Assembly: GCA_020342235.1 (NCBI GenBank) | Contig: CP073216.1 | Location: forward strand, 124,001 to 188,000 | Direction: 5' to 3' | Length of the DNA stretch: 64,000 bases | Source: Saccharomycopsis phalli | Lineage: Eukaryota > Ascomycota > Saccharomycetes > Ascoideales > Saccharomycopsidaceae | In this document: positions 30,977 to 53,652 of the stretch, one piece after another | Numbering within the stretch: position 1 is the first letter of the stretch | How the letters are laid out: every line of letters begins with the position of its first letter | The notes under the pieces: model-generated | Told to the model about the DNA's origin: nothing | The model's input: the letters and a program-made list of their open reading frames with translations, nothing else | Databases searched by the model: none | Program-made: the position numbers and the translations under genes

Positions 30977-32593
30977 CTATACCAAGCTAAGATTCCAATT
31001 GAATCTTTTTAATGCACCCAACCATTTCACGTAAATATCGTCGTCTTGGTTGTTATTCCAGCTCTCTTTTATTATTTCTAATGCACGCTGTAGGTTGGCA
31101 ATCTTGTAACCTGCCAGAAGAATCTCGGACCGATTAAGAAACATTTGGCGATCAAACTCGGTGACGCAGTTAAAGCCCACCAATACGCATGCTAGACAGA
31201 GCATTGATTTCACCGGAGAGATTACAAGCTCATCTATAAGTTTGTTGCTTTGGAGTACCAATAGCTGTATATCGGGTAATGATGCGGGCATGTGCTTTAG
31301 GCACTGTTTAAGTAAAATGGTCACAATTAGCTTGTAGAGCTGGAAGAGTTTTAGGTGATACTCCAACTGGAAAATGGACTCAAAGTACTCCAACTCGGAC
31401 TGCTTGGGTTTCAAATTCGCAATTTGGGCCTCGAACCCTCGATATTTTGCCTGCAACTCAAGCAAGTAGTGCATGCGTTCATCTTCGGTGAGATCCTGCC
31501 GGTATTCAAGCCTTGAATGTTTCACAACGTAAATGCAATCTCTAAACTTCTTTGAGGTATTCAAGATCTCGCCCATTATCACAAACAATGGTCCGACACA
31601 ACTCTGCAATGAGTCGATATAATGAACACCCTTGTCGTAAACACTGTCATAGCAATCAGTTGGGAATGCCGTACCATTTTCTAATGCAGATGATCCTAGC
31701 AAATCGTGATAGACGAAATTGGATACCAAGAACTTCTCCTCCTTAGAATGTATCAAGCTTTCGATTCCTCCGAGTTTACTTATAATCTTTTGGCAAACTT
31801 TATGGAACTCGAGCCACTTGCCAGAGACATCTCCTATTGATATCTCCACACCTTGGAGAACCGTGGCGCATGCCAACATGCTGATTAGGGACTCTCTATC
31901 GATGGAGTGGTTATCCAAAGTCCTCAAATTCTCGTGCATCTGCTGTACCGAGACATCAAAATATTCAGTATCCTGGCTTCTAAACCGCTCACCCCAGCCG
32001 ATAAGAGCGCATAGCAAAGCCTTGTCCTTAAATGCCAAGGGCAAGTAAAAGTTCAAAAAGTAGTTCTTCTCCGAGGGAACCACGCTTATGGACGATGCAA
32101 TTGAGTAAATAAAGTACTCCAAGTACCCCCTGCCCTTGACACAACACTGGCCATCGGGAATGGTGTACAAGGGTACAGGAAATGACAATTGGAAAATCGT
32201 GTAGTCATCAATATCTGTTGGGCTGAAGTCAATCCCAAGTGAGCCATCGAAGTCAATAGACGAATCAAGCGGGCTATTATTCCTGATCGAGTGGCGGGGT
32301 TTCAGGACTAATGTCAGCCTAGTGGGTGCCTTGTCCTTACGTTCAGTGCTTACTTCCGGCCAGTGACACTGCCTATTAGTACGAACACATAATCCACAGC
32401 TAGGTTTCTTCTCGTCACACTTTTTCCTAGGATATTAGTTACCAAAGCTAGGGGGCCTATTGATGACTTACTTCTTTAGTTTACACTGTTTACAGCCAGT
32501 TCTCGAGCGAAAGGTCGAGCCCATCACAATCCGTAGCTTTTTGAAGTCGCCACTATGAGAATCCATCGATTTGCTAGCTGTTTCCCGCGTCAT
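30977..32593 (-). CDS. Zn2Cys6 fungal transcription factor (spliced)
   Basis: Zinc-cluster regulator whose DNA-binding domain is split by an intron. Exon 1 is 32593-32472, the intron 32471-32427 (45 nt; GTAAGT donor, AACTAAT branch, CTAG acceptor) and exon 2 32426-30977, giving 523 residues. The rebuilt cluster at about residues 34-59 reads C-x2-C-x6-C-x6-C-x2-C-x6-C (GCKQCKLKK|KCDEKKPSCGLC), the canonical binuclear zinc form, preceded by RSRTG. The rest resembles the Fungal_trans_2 middle-homology region (Uga3/Arg81/Lys14-like): a helical block LLCALIGWGERF and a long helical C-terminus. I cannot assign an orthologue or target. It lies just downstream of ERG25 on the same strand, but adjacency does not prove a sterol role. 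A two-codon upstream frame overlaps its ATG. Confidence 0.9.
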
Positions 32594-42451: not shown

Positions 42452-43495
42452 TCACACCTCAAAGAGACGGCAGCTATTCTCGTAGGTCGTGTCAATTAGC
42501 AATTGAGGAGATACATTGAGTAGCTTGCAAAGAATCTCAGCGACAAAGCCAATGTACACCGGCTCGTTTCTGGACTTTATTGTTGGTGCCGCCAACATCC
42601 CAATCTCAGTCCTGGTGGCAGGATCATATCTCTTGTGAAACTGGTCTCTTTTGATCGATGGGAACGGCAAAAAGTCGTGCAATTTGCCCGACGCGTCGCC
42701 GGGCTTTTCGGGATAAAAACTGTTGGGGTATGGAGTGATGAAACCATAGCCTGCATGCGATTTACGAATCTCGCACCATGGAGCATCGGTCTCGATCATC
42801 AATCTATCCAATGGGATTTCGGCAGCGACTTTGAGGTTTTCAGGGGTCTTCAACGAACACCCGTTGATGCCAATATAAAATCCCAACTTTAGGAGTGCCT
42901 GCAATTCCTCAGAAGTGCCGGTGAACGAATGTACCACCCCATTCTTGGTCAACTTTTTCACCTGGCCCGCAGCATTTGTAAAGCCCTGGATGTACGGCTC
43001 AATAATGCCGACAAAATCGTCGCAGGCGGCTCTCATGTGTAAAAAAAGCGGTAGGTCAACCTCGCAGGCAACATCCAACTGCCGCCGGAAGAAATTCTTT
43101 TGTACGTCTTTCAGAGCATGGAATAGCCGGTCATAGTCGAGACCAATCTCGCCAAACGATTTGACAATCCCCGACTTTTTTCCCTCAATCGCGAGATCAC
43201 GTAATTTTTCCAAGTTCTCCTCGTGGCCAATGAATTCTGTCACTGAACAAGGATGAACACCAACAGTTGAGTACAACAATTTGGGGTGGCTTTTACACAT
43301 TTCTATGCAACTGGCACTAGAAGCAAGTGACGAGCCAGTGACAAGCATTTTGTCCACGTGGAACAACTTGGCTCGGTCGATGACTTCATTCAAGTCATCA
43401 GAGTGATACTTCTTGTCGTTGTATATTCCTCTGAACATATGGTCCGTGAAGTTTACCCCAATATCAAAGTATCTGACATTCTTACTCAAGCTCAT
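42452..43495 (-). CDS. TatD-family metal-dependent deoxyribonuclease
   Basis: A TIM-barrel hydrolase of 347 residues related to S. cerevisiae YBL055C and human TATDN1, 3'-5' DNases that take part in DNA repair and breakdown in cell death. Signature elements: RYFDIGVNFTDHMF near the start (the eukaryotic IGVN form of the bacterial HxH motif), VGVHPCSV, EIGLDYDR (metal-binding Glu), LPLFLHMR and VVHSFTG (metal histidines), and the C-terminal LMIETDAPWCEIR (catalytic Asp). Length equals the eukaryotic members. Convergent with the PTC2-like gene, with a 203-bp AT-rich gap. The start at 43495 is the only ATG near the conserved N-terminus. Confidence 0.92.
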   Translation of the reverse strand: MSLSKNVRYFDIGVNFTDHMFRGIYNDKKYHSDDLNEVIDRAKLFHVDKMLVTGSSLASSASCIEMCKSHPKLLYSTVGVHPCSVTEFIGHEENLEKLRDLAIEGKKSGIVKSFGEIGLDYDRLFHALKDVQKNFFRRQLDVACEVDLPLFLHMRAACDDFVGIIEPYIQGFTNAAGQVKKLTKNGVVHSFTGTSEELQALLKLGFYIGINGCSLKTPENLKVAAEIPLDRLMIETDAPWCEIRKSHAGYGFITPYPNSFYPEKPGDASGKLHDFLPFPSIKRDQFHKRYDPATRTEIGMLAAPTIKSRNEPVYIGFVAEILCKLLNVSPQLLIDTTYENSCRLFEV

Positions 43496-44283
43496 GATTC
43501 AATTTGGATTTGACTTTTTTCGCCCGACATGGGTGACGCACAATGAAATTTAAATGCTCGGAAAAAATGAATTAAACTGTATTTCAACTACCATTTAAGA
43601 AATCGTGTAATAATAAAGAAAATTTAATATAGAATACTCTATGCCATTGATTTCAGTAGCCATTTCGCTGTTTTCGCCGTGGTGAAAAACTGCTGCTGTT
43701 GTACCTCAAAATCGTGACTATTGTACCTCAAAGTTTTGACTTTGAAACAGTTCAAACGGGAAATTGCAAAAAAGAAACTTGCAAAAAGTAACTTGCAAAA
43801 AGTAAAACATGTCTAAGGTGAGTGAGACAATCTTATAGATGTACTAAACATTCCATTATGCCAATGAAACACTCTATTACAATAAATGTTTCCGGAATGC
43901 AAATTTCATTTACATTAAATTTCATCCAAGCCAGAACGTGAACATACCATCAAATTTGTAATATAGCAGCAAGTATACGCGTTGAAAAATTATTAGAATA
44001 TATTCGTTTGAAAATTCCGAAAAAGCTTAGCTATTCATAATTATGAAAGCAGTGTTGGTGACTATGAAAGTAGGGTTTATAACTATAAAAGTAGGTATGG
44101 TAACTATAAAAGTAGGGATGATAACTCTTGCCCAAACCTTACTGGGTTTGCCTGTATTATGCAATGTGGAAAGTCAAGTTAATAGGGCCTAGCCTAGGAT
44201 AATCTAGACTACAACTGCAGTAACAATACGAGGCGTGGGATTTGTACAGAAAACTAAAAACGGGTATTTCATCACTAACATGA
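43496..44283. other. 788-bp intergenic region with two short tandem arrays
   Basis: An AT-rich gap upstream of the TatD gene. It contains two to three copies of ACTTGCAAAAAGTA (43775-43806) and three to four copies of an 18-21 bp unit, TAACTATAAAAGTAGGNATG (44042-44126). A nine-codon frame, ATGTCTAAG followed by GTGAGT (43809), looks like a start and donor, but no convincing second exon follows. No RNA gene was recognised. Confidence 0.6.
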
Positions 44284-45996
44284 TCACGTAACAAAATAGT
44301 CAAAATTAAATATGAAATTCTGCTGCTCAGGCGCAATATTCAACACTTTGCCATACTCCAAGAAATATTTGATGTTTTTAACCACCCATTGCTCGTTCTC
44401 GTCTGCAATCTGACTAGAGTGTAAGCTCATGGAGGGAGTGAGAATCACATTGGTGCTTTTAACCACGCGTATCCAGTCCTTGTCAAGGGGATCCATGGAG
44501 TCTATTCCGAGTGCCCTAATTTTTCCATTTACTAGATACTTCATTAGACTCTTTGGGCTGAAAATTCCATAATCATCGGTATTGACTAGCACCACGCCAT
44601 CCCTCATTCTCCGTATATCCTTATCAGAAACATTTTTATGCACAGAAATCACACTTGATGTTTCTAGTAACTCGGTGCGTGGTACGTAGACAAGTCCAAG
44701 CTCTTCTTCTATACTAGCTGGCAACTTGAATTCGTCAAAATAAATCACCTTTTCAAACCCAAAATTAGTTATCCTCTTGGCGAAAGCCTTGCTGACACCA
44801 GTGATCCCAAGTATTCCAAGAGTCTTATCTTTCGGAGATTCGCCATAATTAACCATTCCCAATTGTTTATACTTGTCCACAAACTCTTCCTGACTCGACT
44901 GCACCAAGTTCTGTATGGACTGCTGGAAATTTCGCATAGCACTGATCATTAAATACACATGGGTATCAGCAGTGGCATTGTCTTGCAATTCAGAGCCCAT
45001 GCTGTATGATAGCTGAATATTGCGACTCGTCATTGCCCGAACAAGGTCAGTATCGTAGTTTGAATGCGAATTCATCATCGCCACTATGTTGCTTGGTAAA
45101 GTAGCAATTGCTTCGTGGCTTACAAAAGCATCTGTCAATGGGTTGGTCACAAGAATATGAAACTCGCTGGCAGACAGTACCACGTTCAAGAATTCTTGTT
45201 TGGTTTTAGGAAGCTTCAATTGTTTAATCTCCAGATTGTAGCCTAGCTTTAACTCATTCCAAGCCTCCAGTGACCCAAGTGGTTGAAAAACTGCAATCAC
45301 TGGCCGCTTAATATACTTGGCACGGGAGTGTTCAGCCAAAAAGATGGCCTGGGTTCTATTGTGTATCATGAATCCTAAACCAGACATGACCGCAATTATA
45401 AGCACAACTGCTGAACCAATGAGGATCATCTTCCACTGATCAGCATTCAACGGCTGATTTTTGGCCACACGTTTACTTTTGATTGACTTCTTTGGAGCAA
45501 TGGCATGCTTGACATCCTCAAGGGTCTCTAAAAAAGCGTTTCTTTTATTCTTCCCCAGAATTTTCTTTCGTTGCTTAATAGGAATTGGTGCCAAGGGTGG
45601 AAGAGGAGGAAACATCGTAAGAAGCGTGCCATTGGGTCCAAGAGGAGGAAATGGCAAAAAATTTGGAGGAATTATTGGAGGCATGACTGGCGGAATAGGA
45701 ACCTTGGGAAACAAATTTGGCGCTGCCAATCCATGATCTTGCATCTGAGTTCCAAAAGGATAGTTGAAAGAGTTTTGAGTAAACAAGAGTGGATTAGGGA
45801 TTGGGTCTGGAGGAACATAAAACTTGTAATCCTGGGGGTTATAGTCAAGCTTCTCAGCCGTATCAGTCGCGTTAAAGTCATTGTAAAACTCTTGTGGATT
45901 TTGACTTTTCTTCATCCCCTTGGGTCTCCGATAACTCGAAGAGTATTTGATGGAGTACTTAAAGTCTCCATGGAAATCTTTATACTTCTCTGCCAT
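44284..45996 (-). CDS. Membrane-anchored D-2-hydroxyacid-dehydrogenase-like pseudoenzyme
   Basis: The 570 residues fall in three parts. The N-terminal tail has a proline-rich stretch (61-140, many PP and PL) and then a basic KR-rich segment (141-180). One membrane span is at about 190-211 (ILIGSAVVLIIAVMSGLGFM). The C-terminal half (about 230-560) has the two-lobe layout of D-2-hydroxyacid dehydrogenases: TLGILGITGVSKAFAKR (392-408), an acidic strand end in VIYFDEF, and GVVLVNTDDYGIF, KIRALGIDSMDP, NVILTPSMSLHS. The catalytic Arg (normally NTARG), Glu (DVFExEP) and His (TPHIG) are all replaced, and the GxGxxG motif is degenerate. The basic flank predicts an N-in, C-out (type II) topology, and sequons (N213, N340, N455) lie on the lumenal side. 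I recognise no named yeast gene; regulator or scaffold roles are guesses. Confidence 0.75.
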   Translation of the reverse strand: MAEKYKDFHGDFKYSIKYSSSYRRPKGMKKSQNPQEFYNDFNATDTAEKLDYNPQDYKFYVPPDPIPNPLLFTQNSFNYPFGTQMQDHGLAAPNLFPKVPIPPVMPPIIPPNFLPFPPLGPNGTLLTMFPPLPPLAPIPIKQRKKILGKNKRNAFLETLEDVKHAIAPKKSIKSKRVAKNQPLNADQWKMILIGSAVVLIIAVMSGLGFMIHNRTQAIFLAEHSRAKYIKRPVIAVFQPLGSLEAWNELKLGYNLEIKQLKLPKTKQEFLNVVLSASEFHILVTNPLTDAFVSHEAIATLPSNIVAMMNSHSNYDTDLVRAMTSRNIQLSYSMGSELQDNATADTHVYLMISAMRNFQQSIQNLVQSSQEEFVDKYKQLGMVNYGESPKDKTLGILGITGVSKAFAKRITNFGFEKVIYFDEFKLPASIEEELGLVYVPRTELLETSSVISVHKNVSDKDIRRMRDGVVLVNTDDYGIFSPKSLMKYLVNGKIRALGIDSMDPLDKDWIRVVKSTNVILTPSMSLHSSQIADENEQWVVKNIKYFLEYGKVLNIAPEQQNFIFNFDYFVT

Positions 45997-46137
45997 TTGA
46001 GTACTATAAAATGCACATCTTTGGTTAGCGAATATATTAAACCCAGAGCTGAGGTGCCTCGTCTAGAGGAATCAAGCCAGGGCACGCAACCAGAATGAAT
46101 CTGATTTTCTCGACAGCACGAGAACAACATTGGTTAG

Positions 46138-46523: not shown

Positions 46524-48560
46524 CTATTTAAATTCATAGGTCTCGTTGTCGTCATAACAAAGTCGAGGAACTTTTTTGGTCCCCACGATTCTTTCTAAAC
46601 TTGTAGCGTCCCATTTTGAGAATAAAACCCGAACAAAGTTAAGCCCAATGTCGGTAATTACCTCCTTCAGTAAACTGTCCCCCAAAAATCTCAAGATGAT
46701 TTCCGAGTAATATAGTTCGTTGGTTGGTGGTTGGTAGAAGATGATGTTTTGTGTGCCTCGGATATCAAACCGATTATAGTGATGCAATCTCTCGGTGTAC
46801 AACAAGACCTTTACCTTATTGTTTTGAAACTGTGCTCTAGCCTTGGTCTGCTTCGACTGGGAAGTGTACTCATCAATTGCGGCAAAGTTAACGGACGTGG
46901 AAAACTTCAAATGGTTCTTCACACGAACATAGTCATTGTAGTCGGGAATGTAAAGTAATATCCCCTGCTTATCTTCGTCAGATAGCATAGGGACAATGTT
47001 AGACTTGAAGTAGTTAAATCTCATGTCTGGGTCGTTTAGCGGAGAGCCGGAGTCGAACCGTTGAAATATCTGCTTGACCTTGAATACAATCTCGTTGATT
47101 GATCCTGAATACTCAGGCTTGTATTTTATTTTTCCCGCCAAGTTACTGGATTTGGAAAACAACGAGCTGATTTCTGGGGTAAGAAACTTGCAAAAAACCA
47201 AGTTTTGTCTTAGGCACGGATACTTTTCGTTGATGGCCCACATGCGGATCCGACTAAAGTCCAAATCCTCAGAATATGTCTCTGGAATCTTGTTAACATG
47301 GTTCAAGATATACGACACATTTGCCCAGTTTTGGTACTGCAATGAATTTGCCTGGTCAAAAATGATCACTTCCACTGAGGACAAGAAATGCTGGTCATTC
47401 TTTTGAAGGATTGCCTTCAAGCCAAGAGGCGAGCCAAAAATGATGTCTGATTGATTGAATGAGGAGTACAATTTCAAAGTGCGGCGCGTGAACTTCATGC
47501 CCAAGCAGAAAAAGTCGTTGCTGTTGCCGTCAAATAAGTACTTGAAATCCTCGGACTTGTACTCCGGAACTGAGTCATCTGATTGATACTGTCCTAGAAA
47601 CCGTTTCTTGTTCTCCACAGTTTTCAAGTCGACAATCAGGATGATCTTCTCAACAACCTGATAGCAGCTGTCCCTACTGGGCAACACAATAAGCACCTTG
47701 GGTCTGTCAAAGCCCTGGTCCCGCAATTCGGGTTCTTGCGTCGGGTCGGCGGTGCCGTTTTTGACCTGCTCTTTGAAGTTTGAAATCTTGACATTGTTTT
47801 TTAGAATGCGGTCTCTGGTCTTGAGAATATGATTCACTGCATGAAGACAGTAAAGGTCCCTGACCTCTGACTCATTGGCATACTCGCAGTAGGGAAAAAC
47901 CATGTCCATGTACTTCATCATCCCATCCAATAATATTTGTTGGATACTGCTAAGCTTCCCGTGGGCATCTATAAACGGGTTCAATATGCGCGATTTAATG
48001 TTATATTCTGTCAACCTGCGCTTTTCCTTTGAACCAAGGAAAAACTGGTCACTCGGGTACTGCACCATTTTCAAGTACTCACCAGACTTTTCCTTGGTCA
48101 TTGGCCATTTCCCATGCTTTGACTGGTCAAATTGATCAATCTTATTTTCGTCGGGATTATTAAAGTGGACCTCGAACGGATCACTGGTTTCTGAGTCGGA
48201 ATCTGAGTCGGACCCTAAAATGTTCTGCTCATCTAACAACTCATCCTGCTTGGTTTCCTCGACATCTTCCTCGTCCTGCTCAATCACATATTCGGGTTCT
48301 GGCTTTGAAAGCTTCTGCTTCTTTGCGGTCCCAGAAGACTTTTTGTCGGGCTTTAGAAGCACCATCAAAGCATTGTAGGCCTTCCTATTGTCGCTCTGGG
48401 TATACTCTTGCTCCATGTCGGACTCGGTATCAGATCCCTCTGGCAACTCTACATTGGGTTTATCCGTTATATCTTGCCGTTGTCGCTTCCCCGCACGTGT
48501 TACAGTCCTTAATTGACTTCGTCCCGATTTATCCGGATGGCTATAATTGCGTACACGCAT
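46524..48560 (-). CDS. UTP25: U3 snoRNP-associated protein Utp25
   Basis: Small-subunit processome factor for 18S rRNA maturation, a DEAD-box relative (Def/digestive-organ expansion factor family) without ATPase motifs. The 678 residues start basic, then have a Ser/Asp/Glu-rich stretch (about 42-130), then the Utp25 body: GKWPMTKEKSGEYLKMVQYPSDQFFLGSKEKRRL, RPKVLIVLPSRDSCYQVVEKI, SDIIFGSPLGLKAIL, SSVEVIIFDQANSLQYQNW. The C-terminal block contains FAAIDEYTSQSKQTKAR and TERLHHYNRFDIRGTQNIIFYQPP. There is no GKT or DEAD, as expected. Length is close to S. cerevisiae Utp25 (721). An RRPE-like A/T block lies 22 bp before the ATG, fitting ribosome-biogenesis control, with a CACGTG at 48605. Confidence 0.95.
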   Translation of the reverse strand: MRVRNYSHPDKSGRSQLRTVTRAGKRQRQDITDKPNVELPEGSDTESDMEQEYTQSDNRKAYNALMVLLKPDKKSSGTAKKQKLSKPEPEYVIEQDEEDVEETKQDELLDEQNILGSDSDSDSETSDPFEVHFNNPDENKIDQFDQSKHGKWPMTKEKSGEYLKMVQYPSDQFFLGSKEKRRLTEYNIKSRILNPFIDAHGKLSSIQQILLDGMMKYMDMVFPYCEYANESEVRDLYCLHAVNHILKTRDRILKNNVKISNFKEQVKNGTADPTQEPELRDQGFDRPKVLIVLPSRDSCYQVVEKIILIVDLKTVENKKRFLGQYQSDDSVPEYKSEDFKYLFDGNSNDFFCLGMKFTRRTLKLYSSFNQSDIIFGSPLGLKAILQKNDQHFLSSVEVIIFDQANSLQYQNWANVSYILNHVNKIPETYSEDLDFSRIRMWAINEKYPCLRQNLVFCKFLTPEISSLFSKSSNLAGKIKYKPEYSGSINEIVFKVKQIFQRFDSGSPLNDPDMRFNYFKSNIVPMLSDEDKQGILLYIPDYNDYVRVKNHLKFSTSVNFAAIDEYTSQSKQTKARAQFQNNKVKVLLYTERLHHYNRFDIRGTQNIIFYQPPTNELYYSEIILRFLGDSLLKEVITDIGLNFVRVLFSKWDATSLERIVGTKKVPRLCYDDNETYEFK

Positions 48561-48754: not shown

Positions 48755-49753
48755 TTAGACACTAAATTTGTAGAGCTTGTTAATTTTGCTCAATGGGTTC
48801 TTTTTGCCACTAGTAAGACTGCCCGTCGAGTCGCTCGAAGGTGCAGCCTTCTCGAAAGAGGACTTGGAGGTGATCATGGTTGCCAAGGAATGACTACTGC
48901 TCTTTGATTTCACCAACCCGGAGTCCACCGATGGGATGGTCTCAATGTCACTCGAGAGACTCGAGTTAACCAGCTCATAAGTGCTGATTGGCATGGCATT
49001 GAGGTTCTCATCAAGCATAAAGTCCTCCTCGTAGGCTTCCAAGATCTTGTTACTCAAAAAGAGGAACAACCGAAGCCAAAGCTCCTCCAACTCATATGTG
49101 AACTTGTCTCCAAATCTAGTTTCGAATGTCGTTATAAGAGCCCCGGCTAACATCTCAAAGTGCATTGGCTCCACATTTAAGAGCCGTGAATGGCGCCGTC
49201 CCAACTTCTCCAAGTAGTCATCCAACACACTCAAGTTTTCCAACATGCCAATTGCCATGGAGATCACGCCGGAAAGCGCAGTCGCCTGGTGTGATATTGT
49301 TGGGAACACCGAGATAAGATCTGGGTGCTCTGATATTAAGTTGTGGTATATTTGTCTGCAAAAGAGAGAGGTAGCTGCCCCGGCATTGGCATACGAAGCA
49401 CGGTCATGGTAGTTTGGTTGTTGCCTGCTCGAGTTGTTTTCATCGGAGCTATCGCTTGACTCGTCAAACACATCGTTAAGCATTCTGGTCCATGAGGATC
49501 TGAGCTTGCGTATTTCATGGGGCGTAAGGCGTAATCCACTACCCGAAGGCTGTGCAAGGGTTTGACTTCGGAGAGGTGCTGGTACCGAAATTTTCGGGGT
49601 AGCGTATTGAGGGCCAGTGATCTCGTATTTCGTTTGGACCGGTATCGGGGGACTTATAGATGTCACCCTAGAGGTGGATGACAAACTGGTAGGAACAGCA
49701 GAAGGTGCAATTGAAGAAGCAGCGGACAGCGGTCTTTTCTTGAAGAGAGGCAT
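48755..49753 (-). CDS. Fungal globin-domain protein (YNL234W type)
   Basis: A 332-residue protein with one globin domain (about 85-235) flanked by low-complexity tails. The fold begins TPHEIRKLRSSWTRML and has an insert rich in Ser/Asp/Asn (DESSDSSDENNSSRQ) between helices A and B. Helices C-E run ISEHPDLISVFPTISHQATALSGVI, where the distal heme residue would be H or Q in ISHQ. The proximal histidine F8 is in LEKLGRRHSRL. Helices G-H end in ELEELWLRLFLFLSNKILEAY. S. cerevisiae YNL234W has the same layout and binds heme. The C-terminal Ser-rich tail ends in a basic KKNPLSKINKLYKF. The start is set at 49753 (MPLFKKRPLSAAS), since the frame upstream opens only with TTG. Gas sensing is likely, but its output is unknown. 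Confidence 0.85.
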   Translation of the reverse strand: MPLFKKRPLSAASSIAPSAVPTSLSSTSRVTSISPPIPVQTKYEITGPQYATPKISVPAPLRSQTLAQPSGSGLRLTPHEIRKLRSSWTRMLNDVFDESSDSSDENNSSRQQPNYHDRASYANAGAATSLFCRQIYHNLISEHPDLISVFPTISHQATALSGVISMAIGMLENLSVLDDYLEKLGRRHSRLLNVEPMHFEMLAGALITTFETRFGDKFTYELEELWLRLFLFLSNKILEAYEEDFMLDENLNAMPISTYELVNSSLSSDIETIPSVDSGLVKSKSSSHSLATMITSKSSFEKAAPSSDSTGSLTSGKKNPLSKINKLYKFSV

Positions 49754-52893: not shown

Positions 52894-53652
52894 ATGGTTT
52901 CCGTCCAAGCTATCAGTGTTGTTGCGCTTTCCCTCCTTCAATTGTCTCTCGGGGCTACCATTGACAAGAGAGCCCAAACCGTCGCCACCACCACCGACTT
53001 CCAAGTCGTAACCGTCACCCCAACCGTCTGGCAAACTGTCTACGTCACCGGTGGTGCTAACCCGGCCATCAACAACGCTGCTTCGCACTCTCATGCCAGC
53101 GCTGCTCAGCCTTCCGCCGATCCAGTTGCTCAGCCTGACGCCCAATCGTCGGCTGACGCTGTCTCCAGCGACGCTGTTTCTAGCGCTGTTGCCTCTAGTG
53201 ACGCTGCTCCTAGTGACCCAGCCACTTCCAGCGCCCCAGTCTCGTCTAGTGCTCCAACCGTCGTCTCCAGCAGTGTCGAAGCCAAGGCCGTCCAAACCAG
53301 CGCCTCGAGCTCCGGCTCCGGCTCCTCAGACTCGTCTGTTCACACCGGTGACGGTACTTTCTACGACGTCGGCTTAGGTGCTTGTGGTCAAACCAACACC
53401 GACCTGGACCTCATTGCTGCTATCCCAGCCGAGTTGTATGACGCTACCAGACCAGCTCCAGGTAAGCCATCCAACCTCTGTGGAAAGTTTGCCAACGTCC
53501 TGTACCAAGGCAAGTCTGTCAAGGTGCAATTCGTTGACAGATGCCCAGGATGCAGCGGAGGAAGTCTTGACTTGTCTCCAGCTGCTTTCCAGCAACTTGC
53601 CAGCGAGTCTGTCGGCAGACTCCACGGAATTGAGTGGTCGCTCACCTCTTAG
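52894..53652 (+). CDS. Secreted double-psi beta-barrel (expansin-like) protein
   Basis: The 252 residues are built as a cell-surface protein: signal peptide (1-20, ending LSLGA), a Kex2-type site IDKR at 23-26, a conserved-looking VTVTPTVWQTVYVTGG stretch, an Ala/Ser/Asp-rich linker (about 60-145, likely O-mannosylated), and a C-terminal domain from about 150. The domain reads GDGTFYDVGLGACGQTN, then LCGKFANVLYQGKSVKVQFVDRCPGCSGGSLDLSPAAFQQLA. This is the fungal RlpA/barwin-type double-psi barrel with its Cys pairs and DRCPGC signature. Such proteins resemble the catalytic-like half of expansins but are not known to cut polysaccharide. A CTG codon (53404) falls in the usual TNxDSD motif, supporting serine decoding. 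Codon bias (CC-ending Ser, Val, Thr) suggests high expression. Confidence 0.85.
   Translation: MVSVQAISVVALSLLQLSLGATIDKRAQTVATTTDFQVVTVTPTVWQTVYVTGGANPAINNAASHSHASAAQPSADPVAQPDAQSSADAVSSDAVSSAVASSDAAPSDPATSSAPVSSSAPTVVSSSVEAKAVQTSASSSGSGSSDSSVHTGDGTFYDVGLGACGQTNTDLDLIAAIPAELYDATRPAPGKPSNLCGKFANVLYQGKSVKVQFVDRCPGCSGGSLDLSPAAFQQLASESVGRLHGIEWSLTS

Follow-up and report, generated by a model that had tools for sequence, protein, structure and literature searches.

Both plants and animals have put folds of the D-2-hydroxyacid dehydrogenase (D-2HADH) type to new use as scaffolds. According to the relevant passages of PMC9907507, the bilaterian protein CtBP keeps the Arg-Glu-His catalytic triad and needs NAD(H). 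RIBEYE (A-domain plus CtBP2), as described in part of PMC8831697, is a structural component that carries a proline-rich N-terminal domain before its D-2HADH fold, and its B-domain binds NAD(H). The CtBP-like plant protein ANGUSTIFOLIA of Arabidopsis has lost the triad according to excerpts of PMC6303947 and PMC9907507, and in formate dehydrogenases, as excerpts of the former state, an Asn occupies the position of the catalytic Glu.

Here we describe a yeast gene whose product, the pseudo-dehydrogenase, combines such a fold with a proline-rich tail and a hydrophobic span (Table 1). It lies in a window of 64,000 nucleotides, the whole stretch of DNA that was analysed, from a genome of 14.15 Mb in 8 contigs. 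Its 570 codons form a single uninterrupted frame. A codon-usage score was trained on 28 genes of the window, the pseudo-dehydrogenase gene not being among them and two of the 30 other ORFs (30977-31939 and 52894-53652) being left out. It amounts to 0.158 per codon in this frame and to between -0.27 and -0.56 in the five other frames; the 28 genes span 0.063-0.287, and the value of the pseudo-dehydrogenase falls inside their range. The score is near zero in the proline-rich (0.031) and span (0.001) segments, both of which stand above the two other forward frames. An ORF on the opposite strand, 45733-46098, was considered as a gene and rejected, as the other frames score low in codon usage.

Table 1. 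Features of the pseudo-dehydrogenase gene and its product, in window coordinates
Feature	Position	Strand	Basis
Whole ORF, 570 aa	44284..45996	-	One open frame; codon-usage score
Uncharged proline-rich run, residues 99-140, 17 Pro in 42	45577..45702	-	Sequence; sits in predicted disordered N-tail
Basic stretch before the span, residues 141-178	45463..45576	-	Sequence
Hydrophobic span, residues 190-211	45364..45429	-	Hydropathy; predicted helix 185-224
D-2HADH fold, residues ~226-560	44317..45321	-	Profile, sequence and fold match
Predicted helices 336-355 and 357-365 (ATADTHVYLMISAMRNFQ...), best-kept region, residues 336-365	44902..44991	-	Model; sliding identity
Degenerate dinucleotide loop GILGITGVS, residues 394-402	44791..44817	-	Alignment A4
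7-8-residue deletion after strand 449-452, about residues 454-457	44626..44637	-	Alignments; exact place varies between them
Asp475 replacing the catalytic Arg	44572..44574	-	Alignment A4; Arg in 63/63 relatives
Asp502 opposite the catalytic Glu	44491..44493	-	Three of four MAFFT alignments (A1, A3, A5)
Ser522 replacing the catalytic His	44431..44433	-	Alignment A4; His in 63/63 relatives

The gene is flanked by UTP25 (46524-48560) and by a TatD-type nuclease (42452-43495), beyond which lies a PP2C phosphatase. Downstream of it, the intergenic region contains a 21-bp unit repeated in tandem about four times (44037-44126). Elsewhere in the window, the gene 48755-49753 on the reverse strand encodes a globin domain (PF00042, residues 134-230, E = 4.5e-11) preceded by an N-terminal extension of some 130 residues, the start of which is Ser/Pro-rich. 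The forward-strand gene 52894-53652 encodes a Ser/Ala-rich protein with a C-terminal DPBB_1 match (E = 1.8e-8) and, by eye, a signal-peptide-like start, and its product is possibly a secreted cell-wall protein.

An earlier note on this DNA had claimed a D-2HADH scaffold in the C-terminal half, and both the profile search and the structure prediction bear it out. The Pfam family 2-Hacid_dh_C (PF02826) matches residues 348-522 with an E-value of 2.9e-19, and the same profile search gave no match to the catalytic-domain family PF00389 up to E = 10. With phmmer, the glyoxylate reductase structure 3wnv matches residues 293-559 (E = 1.5e-25). An AlphaFold2 model built with 64 rows has pLDDT block means of 80-98 over residues 231-560. 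The Foldseek search with this model again put 3wnv at the top (E = 1.1e-26, TM-score of 0.80 by target length, 353 columns), and another fold for the domain was thus rejected. The profile match is significant and the fold has both of its domains, so the protein belongs to the D-2HADH superfamily. A second model, in which CTG codons were read as Ser and whose 32 rows included 26 of the 58 prokaryotic relatives and five paralogues described below, shows a nearly identical secondary structure with block means of 66-98; the fold search was made with the first model alone.

The reading of CTG matters for four residues of the pseudo-dehydrogenase (147, 243, 255 and 274), none of which falls within the span or coincides with a triad position. 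In the coding regions of the paralogues L002, L003 and L006, CTG codons are found mainly in columns of hydrophilic character: the five of seven that could be aligned have a mean hydrophobic fraction of 0.135, whereas it is 0.631 for Leu codons other than CTG (148) and 0.196 for Ser codons (87). Because these columns are Ser-like, the source yeast probably belongs to the CTG-Ser clade, and the four residues are probably Ser and not Leu. A search for tRNA-Ser(CAG) by its anticodon arm gave 23 matches, all with 3 mismatches, versus 38 for the reversed control, and hence no signal.

When the genome was searched with the full-length protein, four places besides the gene itself were recovered (E-values from 1.3e-33 to 4.6e-4). 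Their matches are confined to the D-2HADH domain (residues 266-564), and a second copy of the tail-span build thus did not turn up, in a search that covers low-complexity stretches such as the proline-rich tail poorly. PF02826 has nine matches in the genome. Two of these, L008 and L009, are weak and were excluded; on visual inspection they resemble an adenosylhomocysteinase and an alcohol dehydrogenase. The genome's six D-2HADH genes besides the one described here, L001-L006, each contain both Pfam domains. Viral contigs queried with the protein and with alignment A1, and genome contigs queried with A1, yielded no confirmed relatives. Genome contigs queried with two intact paralogues gave 200 relatives, of which 80 were kept as loci and 58 were used, the other 22 being dropped for a frame outside 290-362 aa. 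Alignment A4 comprises 63 relatives, namely five from the same genome and 58 from prokaryotes. The patterns by which rows were fetched (AGY[DN]Q... and ...I[SL]KMKD) bias their own columns, but not the triad or glycine columns. Because the C-terminal part of L001 is longer, this paralogue was excluded from A4 and from the tree and retained in A3.

Comparison with these relatives shows what the pseudo-dehydrogenase has lost. The claim that the entire triad is gone stands for Arg and His, which all 63 relatives keep. For Glu it needs qualification: the loss may be a change to Asp, since Asp502 opposes this residue in A1, A3 and A5. In A4, the Glu column contains 62 Glu, one Gln and a gap for the pseudo-dehydrogenase, and the ungapped phmmer alignment to 3wnv places Leu504 there. 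In L001-L006, the Arg and the His are present in all six and the Glu in five, L003 being the paralogue with Gln. The dinucleotide loop is degenerate as claimed and reads GxTxxS in place of GxGxxG: its second and third glycines, each present in 63 of 63 relatives in A4, are replaced by Thr399 and Ser402, and the first one (Gly397) is retained. Asp448, also present in all 63, is a Ser. Hence, neither the Arg and His nor the GxGxxG loop of an active D-2-hydroxyacid dehydrogenase is found in this protein.

General divergence also strips conserved residues. The pseudo-dehydrogenase retains 9 of the 21 columns that are conserved in at least 55 of the 58 prokaryotic rows, and L002, L004, L005, L003 and L006 retain 21, 20, 16, 16 and 13, respectively, with Arg and His spared; L006 is thus without 8 of the 21 and yet keeps the triad. 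An intact enzyme with one mutated site was rejected in view of the many losses.

The N-terminal part is of a different nature. Residues 1-152 have pLDDT values below 50 almost throughout and are predicted to be a disordered tail, and its composition, first proline-rich and then basic, is as the earlier note described it. The tail contains three [FWYL]PxxP sites and one PPLP, which we take to be of EVH1 and WW type, respectively, and a motif scan of the tail found neither a class I or II SH3 consensus nor PPxY; short polyproline motifs of this kind are to be expected in any proline-rich stretch. The single span that had been proposed is also present: its 22 residues are uncharged, its best 19-residue hydropathy is 2.50, and no other strong hydrophobic span exists in the protein. 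The best 19-residue values of the six paralogues are 0.91-1.43, and they are without a comparable span. Hydropathy and the predicted helix thus classify the product as a single-pass membrane protein. We consider it fairly likely that such a protein uses its C-terminal D-2HADH pseudoenzyme as a dimer for binding or scaffolding.

The side of the membrane on which this domain would lie is less clearly marked. The net charges of the N-side and C-side flanks are +6 and +4 over 25 residues, +3 and +1 over 15, and 0 and +1 over 10, which is a weak, length-dependent bias whose nearest 10 residues slightly favour C-in. The three sequons that had been cited as a mark of the lumenal side do exist (residues 213, 340 and 455, the first only two residues from the span), but shuffling of residues 212-570 gives a mean of 3.2. 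They therefore carry no weight as topology evidence and were rejected as such. Without a signal peptide, it would be unusual for a basic tail of 189 residues to be exported, and it is only for this reason that N-in was chosen as the likelier orientation. Together with the weak charge bias, this makes N-in/C-out the likelier topology.

The same pseudoenzyme could also reside on the other side, in the cytosol, nucleoplasm or mitochondrial matrix, with the span anchoring it to an organelle. This arrangement differs from our best explanation in side alone and is what one would expect of a domain derived from soluble enzymes. In its favour, the six paralogues are without a comparable span. The entire protein contains no cysteine (nor does its closest paralogue L002; the other four that were counted have two each), so that, with sequons at chance level, it bears no mark of a secretory domain, and its C-side flank is basic as well. 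Nevertheless, the greater charge of the N-side flank over 15 and 25 residues and the difficulty of exporting the tail speak against it, and we regard a cytosolic-side domain as unlikely.

A pocket that is repurposed instead of dead would lead to a different function, with the protein binding a new ligand or a nucleotide and acting as a metabolite sensor at the membrane, or catalysing a different reaction. Asp421 at the end of the second strand is retained, as are Gly397 and several structural glycines, and polar residues (D474, D475, Y476 and D502) are present at the former active site of a fold that is well predicted in both models. The change of the third glycine to Ser occurs in some working Rossmann folds, and given the kept Asp421 and Gly397 residual nucleotide binding may persist. 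However, without two of the loop glycines, Asp448 and a loop of 7-8 residues, much of the cofactor site is gone, which makes a repurposed pocket quite improbable.

At positions where L002 and L004, the nearest two paralogues that are intact, agree, the pseudo-dehydrogenase retains 14 of 18 residues in the segment 326-365, 11 of 44 in the catalytic and cofactor segments, and 40 of 75 elsewhere. The Fisher p-values are 1.8e-4 for the helices versus the active site and 4.3e-4 for the active site versus all else, and they are only indicative because the segment limits were drawn after the alignment and sliding identities had been viewed. The helices being better kept than the active site, we interpret the protein as a maintained pseudoenzyme and not as a product of decay. 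Combined with the confident fold, this pattern fits a protein in which the fold and the long helices would still be needed while the chemistry is not, a constraint deduced from a single copy.

In a tree computed without CtBP rows, the domain groups with L002 and L004 (100/91). Its end branch is 2.06, compared with 0.82 and 1.03 for the latter two, and because the branches are long its exact place is unsure. Identity to L002 is 33% in alignment A1 and 36% locally. As part of our best explanation, the domain would on balance derive from a yeast glyoxylate-reductase-like branch of the D-2HADH family. The long branch and the low identity to any relative would also suit a lineage-specific gene on its way out, in which a duplicated reductase gained a tail and a span and is now drifting, but the 570 open codons, the codon usage within the range of the neighbours, the confidently predicted fold and the concentration of losses in the active site with the long helices retained make this very improbable.

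Returning to the maintained pseudoenzyme, the protein most likely acts as a binding platform instead of an enzyme. The D-2HADH domain would transfer no hydride and have little or no affinity for NAD(P). It would retain the dimer of its family, because the best-kept part comprises what we take to be the hinge and dimer helices. A chemically inert dimer held at a membrane could then serve as a binding or scaffold domain, and the disordered tail, most likely cytosolic, could be an arm that recruits proteins with polyproline-binding domains. Only tentatively do we extend this to a receptor-like protein of the secretory pathway or cell surface, with a dimeric, cofactor-free fold in the lumen or outside the cell, one span and a proline-rich recruiting tail in the cytosol. 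If this were true, a D-2HADH fold would have become the part of a membrane protein that senses or adheres. A lumenal domain would also mean that an enzyme fold of soluble origin has moved into a compartment without its usual cofactor pool.

Among the literature matches listed, as judged by title or the start of the abstract and with subscription papers thinly covered, there is no yeast counterpart of this build, and the combination of a membrane span with loss of both the triad and the cofactor loop is absent. Nothing in these listings contradicts the earlier note, whose author knew of no described yeast protein built in this way. The best neighbours by sequence, structure and tree are the fungal glyoxylate reductase 3wnv (Paecilomyces), L002 and L004, which share the full-length two-domain fold. 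Unlike the pseudo-dehydrogenase, which has a tail and span, they keep Arg, Glu, His and GxGxxG, and L002 and L004 are without a comparable span. CtBP is more distant: by sequence, 3wnv matches at 1.5e-25 versus 1.2e-11 for the best CtBP chain, 3wnv is ahead by fold too, and Asp475 and Ser522 break the triad that CtBP has. We take CtBP/BARS to be soluble, and we presume that RIBEYE keeps the triad and has no membrane span. CtBP/BARS, which the title of 1hku ties to Golgi membrane fission, uses the D-2HADH fold for protein binding but keeps its triad, unlike the pseudo-dehydrogenase. The passages on RIBEYE indicate that it shares the proline-rich N-terminal part and the fold. ANGUSTIFOLIA, compared by description only, resembles the yeast protein in its triad loss, and the excerpts describing it mention no membrane span or proline-rich N-terminal tail. 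In relation to these two, the predicted membrane span is the new element. A yeast gene of this type permits tests of enzyme-fold reuse by ordinary genetics. In summary, a membrane-tethered, catalytically stripped yeast protein would add a further case to the plant and animal D-2HADH scaffolds, and its position near the yeast reductases suggests that it is probably independent of them.
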